Positions 3,795 to 47,770 of a DNA stretch of 64,000 nucleotides are shown here, one piece after another (position 1 is the stretch's first letter; every line of letters begins with the position of its first letter). A model generated the notes under the pieces. The model did not search any database and was not told the DNA's origin. It worked only from the letters and a program-made list of their open reading frames with translations. Both the position numbers and the translations under genes were made by a program. Location of the stretch: positions 124,001 to 188,000 of the forward strand of contig NZ_CP011308.1 in the NCBI RefSeq assembly GCF_000987835.1, in the 5' to 3' direction. The DNA comes from Sulfurovum lithotrophicum (GTDB lineage Bacteria > Campylobacterota > Campylobacteria > Campylobacterales > Sulfurovaceae).

Positions 3795-5075
3795 TTAAAG
3801 TTTTTTGACCAGGTCTATAAAAATTTCTCCTCTTTGGGCATAATTTTTAAACTGGTCAAAACTTGCAGCGGCAGGAGAAAGCAGTGCAACATCATTTGTG
3901 CCCATCTTTTTGTCAATATTGGTGACAGCATTCTCAAGTGTTTTCGACGCTACTGCTTCAATGTTATATTCGTTGGCAAGAGAAAGCAGTCTGTCACTGT
4001 TTGTTCCAATGGTATATAATGTAAGGGAAACTTGTGACATGGCATCGAAAAAAGGATGCAGGTCGACACCTTTGTCATCCCCACCGGCGATGAGATGGAT
4101 ATGATGATCATCATAGGCACGGATAGCCTGGATGGCTGCATCGACATTGGTGGCTTTGGAGTCATTTACCCAGAGTCTTCCTTTTGCATCATGAAGTTTC
4201 TGCTGCCTGTTGAGGTCCATTTTGAAAGTGTTGATACGCTCATAGTCGACTTCATCGAACAGGACCCGTGTGATTGCCAGCGCCAGCATGGCATCTTCGA
4301 GGAAAGCTGCTTTGAAGTTGATGCGGGCTGGATTGATATTGAAATAGTCTGAAAGAAAGTCGATGGAGTCATATTCGACAATAAAAGCATTGGTTTCAGG
4401 CAGATCAAGCCCTTTGGGTACAAGCGCGAGCTCTCCCTCTTTCATGGTGAGCAGGGGTCTAAGCTTGTCGGCAGCATAGGCTTCCGATGTACCGTGCCAG
4501 TCAAGATGATCCGGAGTGATGGGAAGCAGCAGATAGATGTTTGGCGAAGCAGTTCGGGTGTGATGCAGGGTAAAAGAACTGGTCTCCAGTACCCAGATGG
4601 GTGCATCGGGATCAAGATCTGCCAGTGGCGTACCGATATTTCCTCCGCTTACCGCACCGCGCTTTTCGAGCAGGTGTATGAGCATCTGTGTCGTTGTCGT
4701 CTTGCCGTTGGTACCACTAATCCAAACCGTGAACGGTTTGGTATGTGTAGGGTGCTGTGCCCTCACAGCACCATTAGTACAGTCCGGGGTTCCCGGTGCC
4801 GTCGGGGGACAGTACCCTGCAGGAGAAAGGAAGTAGTCGTATTCACTGAGCAGGTGTTTCGCTTTTTGGATAAGCGGATGATCCGGTTTGAGGCTTGGCG
4901 TGGTGACTTCAAGTTCGCTTTTGTCCGGATCGAACATGGATGAAGGATAGATATGGTTTCCCATTTCATCCGTGTAAGGTTCATTTGTCTTGTCATCGAA
5001 GAAAGTACAACCACCGCCAAGTTTTCTGGCGATCGCCTTTGTGGTAAGACCGTATCCGAATAGAGTGGGTTTCAT
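3795..5075 (-). CDS. murD: UDP-N-acetylmuramoyl-L-alanine--D-glutamate ligase MurD, with an in-frame repeat-encoded insertion
   Basis: MurD is the cytoplasmic ligase that adds D-glutamate to UDP-MurNAc-L-Ala in peptidoglycan synthesis. The ATP loop ISGTNGKTTTTQM lies at residues 119-131. The middle and C-terminal Mur-ligase domains follow, with the carrier region QQKLHDAKGRLWVNDSKATN and VALLSPAAASFDQF near the end. The ATG at 5075 begins one base after the mraY stop, so mraY-murD form one unit. Residues 86-111 (from AGYCPPTAPG to RAQHPTH) are a Pro/Thr/Gly/Cys-rich insert just before the ATP loop. Its DNA is a palindromic REP-like element also seen between genes elsewhere here. The frame stays open, so the gene is probably functional. 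Confidence 0.95.
   Translation of the reverse strand: MKPTLFGYGLTTKAIARKLGGGCTFFDDKTNEPYTDEMGNHIYPSSMFDPDKSELEVTTPSLKPDHPLIQKAKHLLSEYDYFLSPAGYCPPTAPGTPDCTNGAVRAQHPTHTKPFTVWISGTNGKTTTTQMLIHLLEKRGAVSGGNIGTPLADLDPDAPIWVLETSSFTLHHTRTASPNIYLLLPITPDHLDWHGTSEAYAADKLRPLLTMKEGELALVPKGLDLPETNAFIVEYDSIDFLSDYFNINPARINFKAAFLEDAMLALAITRVLFDEVDYERINTFKMDLNRQQKLHDAKGRLWVNDSKATNVDAAIQAIRAYDDHHIHLIAGGDDKGVDLHPFFDAMSQVSLTLYTIGTNSDRLLSLANEYNIEAVASKTLENAVTNIDKKMGTNDVALLSPAAASFDQFKNYAQRGEIFIDLVKKL
4747..4820. repeat. REP/REPIN-like palindromic element inside murD
   Basis: The element begins GTAGGGTG on the plus strand and ends ACCCTGC. It holds a perfect 9-bp hairpin, GGTGCTGTG (4751-4759) and CACAGCACC (4764-4772) with loop CCCT, and a second imperfect hairpin with GTACTGTCC and GGACTGTAC arms on the minus strand. 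The same outer ends (GCAGGGT...ACCCTGC) flank the paired hairpins at 34645-34730. It encodes about residues 86-110 of MurD without breaking the frame. Confidence 0.75.
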
Positions 5076-8195: not shown

Positions 8196-8939
8196 ATGAA
8201 ATTTTCGGGAAATAATGTACTGGTAACAGGTGCAAGCCGTGGGATTGGTGCGCAGATCGCAAAGACACTGGCCCAGATGGGTCTCAAAGTATGGGTGAAC
8301 TACAGAAGTGGTGAGGCGGAGGCCAATACAGTCAAAGCGGATATCGAAGCAGCAGGCGGTAAAGCCGAAGTGATTGGTTTTGATGTGAGTAACGAAGAGG
8401 CATTTGTTGCTGCGATCAAGTCGATCGTTGAGCTGGATGGTGAACTTTCCTACCTTGTGAATAATGCGGGGATCACCAATGACAAACTGGCAATGCGTAT
8501 GAAAACGGAAGATTTCATGTCGGTCATAGAGGCTAATCTCAAATCGACCTTCATCGGCTGTCGTGAAGCGGTTAAAGTGATGGGGAAAAAGCGTTTCGGT
8601 TCGGTGGTGAACATCGCTTCCATCGTAGGTGAGACGGGGAATGCCGGTCAGACCAACTATGCGGCAAGCAAAGGCGGGACGATCGCAATGACGAAGAGCT
8701 TCGCCATTGAAGCCGCGCCAAGGAACATCCGTTACAATACAGTCACTCCGGGATTCATCGCTACTGAGATGACAGACGTGCTTAAAGATGAAGTGAAAGA
8801 TGCTTTTACCGCAAAGATACCGATGGGACGGTTTGGTGAGCCGAAAGAAGTGGCCGAAGCGGTCGCTTTCCTGCTTTCTGACCATGCTTCCTACATTACA
8901 GGAGAAACCCTAAAAGTCAACGGCGGGATGTATATGTGA
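8196..8939 (+). CDS. fabG: 3-oxoacyl-[acyl-carrier-protein] reductase FabG
   Basis: NADPH-dependent short-chain dehydrogenase/reductase of fatty acid elongation, reducing 3-oxoacyl-ACP. The 247 residues carry the cofactor loop TGASRGIGAQIA, the NNAG motif (VNNAGITND), the catalytic Ser in VNIASIVGETGNAGQ, and the active pair YAASKGG. The C-terminus GETLKVNGGMYM is typical of FabG. The ATG follows AAGGACAAG. The stop TGA is the first three bases of a family A repeat hairpin that probably ends transcription. acpP-fabF-accA lie 30 kb away. Confidence 0.95.
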   Translation: MKFSGNNVLVTGASRGIGAQIAKTLAQMGLKVWVNYRSGEAEANTVKADIEAAGGKAEVIGFDVSNEEAFVAAIKSIVELDGELSYLVNNAGITNDKLAMRMKTEDFMSVIEANLKSTFIGCREAVKVMGKKRFGSVVNIASIVGETGNAGQTNYAASKGGTIAMTKSFAIEAAPRNIRYNTVTPGFIATEMTDVLKDEVKDAFTAKIPMGRFGEPKEVAEAVAFLLSDHASYITGETLKVNGGMYM

Positions 8940-9066
8940 GACGCGTTAAGAAAACGTGAACTGCTTCACGTTTTTAGCGTCGAAACCGAAGCGGTGGAGC
9001 AAAGCGACCCGCGTAGGCTGGAAGAACCGTTAAGAAAACGTGAACTGTTTCACGTTTTTAGCGTCG
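8940..9066 (+). repeat. Family A stop-codon-linked hairpin repeat, two hairpins and one core
   Basis: Directly after the fabG TGA come G-AC-GCGTTAAG and a perfect 10-bp hairpin AAAACGTGAA/TTCACGTTTT (8951-8974, loop CTGC). The sequence then reads TAGCGTC and the core GAAACCGAAGCGGTGGAGC...CCCGCGTAGGC (8982-9018). A second copy of the hairpin (9035-9058, loop CTGT) follows GTTAAG and ends TAGCGTCGGAACC. Flanking A and T runs make each hairpin terminator-like in both directions, which suits the convergent genes on either side. Confidence 0.8.
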
Positions 9067-9076
9067 GAACCTATTT

Positions 9077-32902: not shown

Positions 32903-33245
32903 GCAGCGTTAAAAAATCGACACCTGCGTGTCGATTTTAGCTGCGAAACCGAAGCGGTGGAGCAAAGCGACCCGCGAAGGCAGAGAACAACTTTGAAACC
33001 GAAGCGGTGGAGCAAAGCGACCCGCGAAGGCAGAGAACAACTTTGAAACCGAAGCGGTGGAGCAAAGCGACCCGCGAAGGCAGAGAACAACTTTGAAACC
33101 GAAGCGGTGGAGCAAAGCGACCCGCGAAGGCCGGAAACCCTGTAGAGGCGGAACCGGAGCGGTCGTAACGAAGTGAAGCCGCGTAGGCAGGAATCCCTGT
33201 TAAAAAATCGACACACAGGTGTTAATTTTAGCTGCGAAAGCGGAG
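32903..33245 (+). repeat. Family A repeat block after the nos operon
   Basis: This fills most of the 424-bp gap before the PAS gene. After TGA comes G-CA-GCGTTAAA and a perfect 11-bp hairpin AAAATCGACAC/GTGTCGATTTT (32913-32938, loop CTGC), then TAGCTGC. Four cores in tandem follow (separate entry), then a variant core with GCGGTCGTAACGAAGTGAAG (33148-33188). The block ends with a decayed hairpin (about 33203-33228) in which the central CG pairs are lost, and TAGCTGCGAAAGC. The first hairpin should end transcription of the nos operon. Confidence 0.8.
32945..33131 (+). repeat. Tandem repeat, 50-bp period, 3.7 copies
   Basis: Units start with GAAACCGAAGCGGTGGAGC at 32945, 32995, 33045 and 33095. 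The first three 50-base units are identical; the fourth stops after CGAAGGC. Each holds the core (GCGG...CCCGCGAAGGC) plus a spacer AGAGAACAACTTT. Identical copies point to recent expansion by slippage or unequal exchange. Confidence 0.92.
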
Positions 33246-34644: not shown

Positions 34645-34730
34645 GCAGGGTGTTGTATCCTTACAACACCGATAATTCAAATAGATACAAAAATTATATA
34701 TTGAGGGTGTTGTCATGAGACAATACCCTG
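34645..34730. repeat. REPIN-like pair of palindromes
   Basis: GCAGGGTGTTGT...ACAACACC (hairpin 34649-34670) and GGGTGTTGTC-ATGA-GACAATACCC (34705-34728) face each other across 34 AT-rich bases, ending in TGCA. The outer ends GCAGGGT and ACCCTGC mirror those of the element in murD. It fills the gap between two NosL-type genes. Confidence 0.75.
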
Positions 34731-36869: not shown

Positions 36870-36914
36870 GGTGTGCAATTGCACTGTTTGGTGTAGGGTG
36901 TGCAATTGCACACC
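36870..36914. repeat. Two family B palindromes in tandem
   Basis: GTGCAATTGCAC at 36873-36884 and GTAGGGTGTGCAATTGCACACC at 36893-36914, whose 9-bp arms meet without a loop (36897-36914). It lies between permease and ATPase genes and ends 12 bases before the ATPase AAGG. Confidence 0.75.
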
Positions 36915-37622: not shown

Positions 37623-37643
37623 GTAGGGTGGGCCTTGCCCACC
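37623..37643 (+). repeat. Family B palindrome
   Basis: GTAGGGTGGGC-CTT-GCCCACC: 7-bp arms (37627-37633 and 37637-37643), 5 bases after the ATPase stop. The rest of the 81-bp gap (to 37698) shows nothing clear. Confidence 0.75.
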
Positions 37644-47748: not shown

Positions 47749-47770
47749 GGTGTGTGATTACACACCCTAC
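47749..47770 (-). repeat. Family B palindrome before trpF
   Basis: On the minus strand GTAGGGTGTGT-AATC-ACACACC, 7-bp arms. It ends 11 bases before the trpF ATG and abuts the GAAGGA ribosome-binding site, so it could affect trpF translation. Confidence 0.75.

Follow-up and report, generated by a model that had tools for sequence, protein, structure and literature searches.

At 4747-4820 of the window (the whole 64-kb stretch of DNA analysed), two GTAG-type REP palindromes in inverted orientation are read in frame through the essential cell-wall gene murD (Table 1). In an NCBIfam profile search the murD product matched TIGR01087 MurD with 312 bits (cut-off 212). It is the only MurD copy in the studied genome and its P-loop residues are intact. 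The pair spans 74 nt, made up of 26-nt GTAG units with 22 nt between them, and encodes AGYCPPTAPGTPDCTNGAVRAQHPTHT at residues ~86-112. Unit 1 reads GTAGGGTGCTGTG-CCCT-CACAGCACC on the plus strand and has a GTAG foot. Unit 2, for which GCAGGGTACTGTCCCCCGACGGCACC is the reverse complement reading, has GCAG at the corresponding place, and the relative L035 has GTAG there and retains the full foot GTAGGGTGC. At the RNA level the insert site had no match in Rfam and the folded mRNA hairpin was just mildly unusual (z -2.0), hence no RNA role is claimed.

Table 1 Features of murD, its insert and related repeats (window positions)
Feature	Position	Strand	Remarks
murD, UDP-MurNAc-L-alanine:D-glutamate ligase	3795..5075	-	426 aa, intact ORF, carries the insert
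3' flank in murD sense, HTKPFTVWISG	4715..4746	-	ATPase domain start; conserved from PF on
REP unit 1 of murD pair, GTAGGGTGCTGTGCCCTCACAGCACC	4747..4772	+	9 stem pairs counted past the GTAG foot
REP unit 2 of murD pair, GCAGGGTACTGTCCCCCGACGGCACC	4795..4820	-	inverted; diverged foot
Whole murD REP pair, BIME/REPIN-like	4747..4820		in frame; ~27 codons more than the empty site
5' flank in murD sense, ...LLSEYDYFLSP	4821..4857	-	conserved as far as SEYDYF
Intergenic REP pair, GCAGGGTG...CACC / GGTG...CCCTGC	34645..34730		same family as the murD insert
Intergenic REP, GTAGGGTGTGCAATTGCACACC + partial copy	36870..36914		same foot at 36893
Intergenic single REP, GTAGGGTGGGCCTTGCCCACC	37623..37643	+
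Intergenic single REP, GTAGGGTGTGTAATCACACACC	47749..47770	-

The murD pair belongs to an abundant repeat family. The pattern GYAGGGTGN(6-22)CACC matched 149 times genome-wide, against 3 matches for the reversed pattern, an 80-nt stretch of the murD insert gave 52 matches in the 2,217,891-bp single-contig genome, and the window has 4 copies of GTAGGGTG where 0.75 would be expected. A sequence-only reading of the window had described a palindrome pair in frame in murD, taken it for an inserted member of a repeat family and assigned the same outer ends to several intergenic repeats. All of this was confirmed: the coordinates and residue numbers were right to within one codon, the 149 matches against 3 mark a repeat-family element, and the foot was found at 34645, 36893, 37623 and, on the minus strand, 47749-47770. 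Surroundings were read for 125 of the ~149 units, in the stretches around repeat matches rather than in a rebuilt genome. At least six stem pairs were present in 118 of these 125, as in a high-copy imperfect palindrome, and inverted pairs occur at many loci (for example L002-L005, L009 and L022). The repeats are mainly intergenic, with ~5 of the 125 units read lying inside three conserved genes (two units in murD, one in pdxA and two in priA).

The studied genome has three Y1 transposase genes, one of which (L033) encodes a REP-associated tyrosine transposase, RAYT (NF047646, 150.7 bits, cut-off 80), and has GTAGGGTGTGCAAT-type GTAG REPs on either side. The murD REP pair is very probably a short non-autonomous repeat moved by a RAYT (Y1 HUH) transposase; that RAYT acts on these REPs we infer from knowledge of the family and from the gene context. 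One match, at L023 (GTAGGGTGTGGTACC...), was rejected as a chance match with no proper stem. Long ORFs crossing REPs were discarded as apparently antisense, unsupported or upstream extensions at L073 (217 aa), L065, L066, L010 and L013, and on the same grounds at L022, L354, L359, L360 and L376. A separate repeat family lies between two genes at 32945-33144, where four 50-bp repeats (GAAACCGAAGCGGTGGAGCAAAGCGACCCGCGAAGGCAGAGAACAACTTT) stand head to tail and adjoin a hairpin related to one at 8929-9071.

AlphaFold run on the single MurD sequence gave a model that was not usable (mean pLDDT 37), and a 50-sequence alignment was used instead. With it the mean pLDDT was 86.8, the closest structural matches of the model were MurD enzymes, and a single segment fell below 50, residues 87-110, between the last N-domain helix and the strand that runs into the P-loop. 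The insert is thereby predicted to be the only disordered segment in an otherwise normal MurD. The complete genome G024 carries the same murD insert in a MurD that is 93% identical. Outside the insert, murD evolves under strong purifying selection (dN/dS 0.087 between the two genomes). Within the insert, 10 differences are nonsynonymous and 2 synonymous (Fisher p=2e-4 against the rest of the gene). Among 97 aligned MurD sequences the insert linker is the sole internal site with minority insertions of at least 5 residues, and MraY, encoded by the gene adjoining murD, is 352-354 aa long in 78 of 80 sequences. That the added peptide is tolerated, as the sequence-only reading supposed, is supported.

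Comparison across the genus

We compared MurD in 78 Sulfurovum genomes, 73 of which gave a murD match. The 98 distinct sequences fall into four states at the insert site: 51 are empty, 10 short, 10 carry a REP and 27 carry other inserts. Many congeners have an empty site of the form SEYDYF-xxx-MPFSIWISG, so the inserted residues are not common to all relatives; the insert is absent or replaced with both flanks intact, as the sequence-only reading had predicted. Every insert of other species is in frame. They include REP pairs with differing stems (L034/L035, L038, L041/L047/L137 and L050), single REPs (L051, L053 and L059), TCAACGC-type heptamer arrays (L106 and L120), a composite insert (L191) and some inserts of 8-17 aa with no recognisable repeat. 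Blocks of (GGGAGCA)n and (CTCCTCA/CTTCACT)n heptamers occur in many inserts, often flanking GCATCGCAAAGCGATGC. Given that REPs and heptamer arrays are different families, not all inserts were counted as REPs. The codon phase relative to the REP also varies by insert type (GCA-GGG-TAC in L034, GT-AGG-GTG in L050), and the reading frame was therefore not inherited from a single event.

On a MurD tree of the 98 sequences, built with the insert columns left out, the four insert states require at least 22 changes, and the REP label alone requires 7, at least 5 of them forced by well-supported branches. These state changes are at least partly due to recombination. The murD of L137 is a mosaic, with 92.8% identity to L047 left of the insert and a right part 90.5% identical to the insert-less L130, and on this sequence evidence its insert arrived through recombination of murD. 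The two parts belong to different lineages, pointing to recombination between species. Because recombination explains L137, the near-identical but scattered inserts of L041, L047 and L137 were not counted as independent. Judged by element sequence, the MurD site would have received at least four distinct REP events and at least two heptamer types.

The inserts follow the repeat content of their genomes. In genomes whose MurD contains a REP the median REP count is 100, compared with 16.5 otherwise (p=5e-5, uncorrected for shared ancestry), and heptamer arrays number 12 in genomes with a heptamer-class MurD insert against 0 (p=2.5e-9, likewise not adjusted for shared ancestry). One genome, G047, has a REP-like MurD insert yet few REPs (5), which counts against the explanation preferred below, as do the inserts of 8-17 aa that match no known repeat pattern. 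No target-site signature was resolved at the MurD insert, since the flanks of filled and empty alleles differ by several codons. Heptamer arrays also lie just 5' of the murD start in three genomes (G014:C45:91662-91687, G020:C17:41599-41624 and G016:C1:251914-251939), which gives G014, G016 and G020 two repeat-prone murD spots.

In the studied genome pdxA likewise carries a single GTAG REP in frame (L243 / G000:C1:721138). The site is one loop ahead of PLVPDVAF that takes up four repeat types across the genus: the GTAGGGTG REP in the studied genome and L248, a GTAG REP with another stem in L246, L249 and L254, a CTTCGACARGCTCAGG...CTGAGCCTGTCGAAG palindrome in L250, L253, L257, L263 and L268, and heptamers, themselves of two types. 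The pdxA of G024 has no REP at this loop, and the insertion in the studied genome is therefore probably recent. Compared with L243, PdxA of Campylobacter jejuni (PDB 3tsn) has extra residues of its own at about the same loop, which suggests a long-standing length tolerance there. The studied genome also has an in-frame REP pair in priA (L351:698-2569; G000:C1 about 314997-316868), which falls exactly between the 3'-DNA-binding domain (3'BD, 16-93) and the helicase domain (from 125).

Discussion

The explanation we hold to be very likely is that a REP pair, very probably moved by RAYT, landed in frame in the MurD linker, and that such insertions persist where selection lets a permissive linker keep them and then travel further by recombination. 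RAYT-type and other repeat insertions would land widely in the genome, selection would purge nearly all of those within genes, and the survivors would build up at the few linkers or loops that accept extra, disordered residues. In MurD the pair sits in the linker joining the UDP-binding N-domain to the ATPase domain. Because stops are rare in them, REPs and heptamer arrays would be easily accepted: the GTAG foot shuts just one frame (G-TAG), and the stop-free heptamer arrays seen here yield one heptapeptide, identical in all frames. An established insert could then drift nearly neutrally, an insert of another family could replace it, and homologous recombination of murD could pass it between species. 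Different repeat families repeatedly fill the same MurD and PdxA spots, and we therefore regard the MurD linker and the PdxA loop as places where repetitive DNA lands recurrently and is tolerated. In a wider form, to which we incline with less assurance, certain protein linkers may serve a whole genus as landing pads, at which unrelated mobile palindromes and tandem repeats are time and again inserted, exchanged and, through recombination inside essential genes, handed from species to species, a continuing source of new disordered peptides for core enzymes.

Instead of marking where insertions survive selection, the MurD and PdxA sites could be targets that the insertion machinery prefers, drawn by a local motif, by lagging-strand ssDNA exposure, or by a resident palindrome that attracts insertion or template switching. 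The reuse of a single site per protein by different families fits such targeting, as do the CTAC end of the PdxA REP, which coincides with a TAC that some empty alleles have, and the arrays just upstream of murD in G014, G016 and G020. However, GTAG REPs, CTTCGACA palindromes and heptamers are unrelated families, for which a common targeting rule is not expected, and the sites are domain linkers and loops, as tolerance alone predicts; we consider targeting unlikely. An adaptive insert, one whose peptide tunes MurD (for example the movement between its domains) and is therefore retained, is favoured by its presence in about half of the species and by its position at a hinge beside the P-loop strand. 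Against this, the sequence, origin and length of the insert (0 to 56 extra residues) vary freely, AlphaFold predicts it to be disordered, its differences are rich in nonsynonymous changes and many close relatives are without it, making an adaptive role very improbable.

We give equally little credence to one ancient insertion in the ancestor of the genus, with the present types as decayed versions of a single element that has since diverged or been lost. Some insert-bearing alleles of different type do have the flanks FLG...KPFT in common, but the inserts match distinct repeat families that their own genomes carry at other places, closely related sequences have different types (heptamers in L043/L046 and REPs in L051/L053; L034/L035 and L036/L037), and the pdxA REP of the studied genome is missing from its nearest relative. 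That the insert is an artefact of assembly or annotation, or murD a pseudogene, found no supporting point at all and can practically be set aside, given that the genome is a single contig, the complete genome G024 has the same insert, dN/dS is that of a constrained gene (0.087), and the studied genome has just one MurD, with intact P-loop residues.

Landing and filtering of repeats at linkers thus remains the preferred reading, and in part it concerns a known kind of element. The sequence-only reading knew of no such coding insertions in Campylobacterota. GTAG REPs have been reported in epsilon-proteobacteria, with Sulfurovum sp. NBC37-1 named as a host (Di Nocera, De Gregorio and Rocco 2013, PMC3733652). 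Since the same study reports in-frame intragenic GTAG and CGTC REPs in many other species, including in replication and repair genes, an in-frame REP is of a known kind. The elements described here resemble those GTAG REPs in their foot, in being high-copy, mostly intergenic imperfect palindromes of 20-30 bp, in their inverted pairs, in a RAYT flanked by REPs and in their in-frame occurrence in replication and repair genes (here PriA). MurD is not named in the main text of that study, although its supplement may list the NBC37-1 murD. The study also describes different REPs at about the same recB site in two Xanthomonas species, that is, a shared site in one gene of two species, whereas here the MurD and PdxA sites are reused genus-wide by unrelated REP and non-REP families.

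The likeness to Rickettsia palindromic elements that had been proposed holds for behaviour and fails for membership. Those elements, of ~150 bp and several families, are the classic coding palindromes (Ogata et al. 2000, 2002; described in PMC10969869 and PMC3733652), and both kinds are palindromic repeats tolerated in frame in housekeeping genes (here murD, pdxA and priA). In contrast to the 74-nt pair found here, they measure ~100-150 bp. In R. conorii, intragenic REPs belong to the CGTC type, without a transposase, and their CGTC end is that of RPE-4/RPE-6 (PMC3733652), whereas GTAG ends and a RAYT are found here, in Campylobacterota.

Short tandem heptanucleotide repeats are known from cyanobacterial genomes. 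The arrays seen here are likewise dispersed and built of 7-bp units, but they stand in frame at MurD and PdxA coding sites that REPs use in sister species. Our literature search found no description of single protein sites being reused throughout a genus by several repeat families that are unrelated to one another. This reuse is the new part; in-frame REPs and Rickettsia elements were already known. It makes selection on mobile-DNA insertions visible at the resolution of a single loop, at linker sites that take up whichever repeat family abounds in a given species. Natural insertions show which linkers of MurD, PdxA and a few other core enzymes can take extra residues, and the rate at which new protein segments arise from repeats, RAYT targeting and the spread of alleles between species all become testable.

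Other proteins

In Dxs of a few species (L291, L292, L290 and L320) a CTTCGACA...TGTCGAAG palindrome lies past GNGVGRA and encodes LRQAQGTV.EPVE; most species are without it. In-frame inserts of the CTTCGACA type also occur as single cases in Mfd-like, FolC-like and AnmK proteins of relatives (L279, L287).
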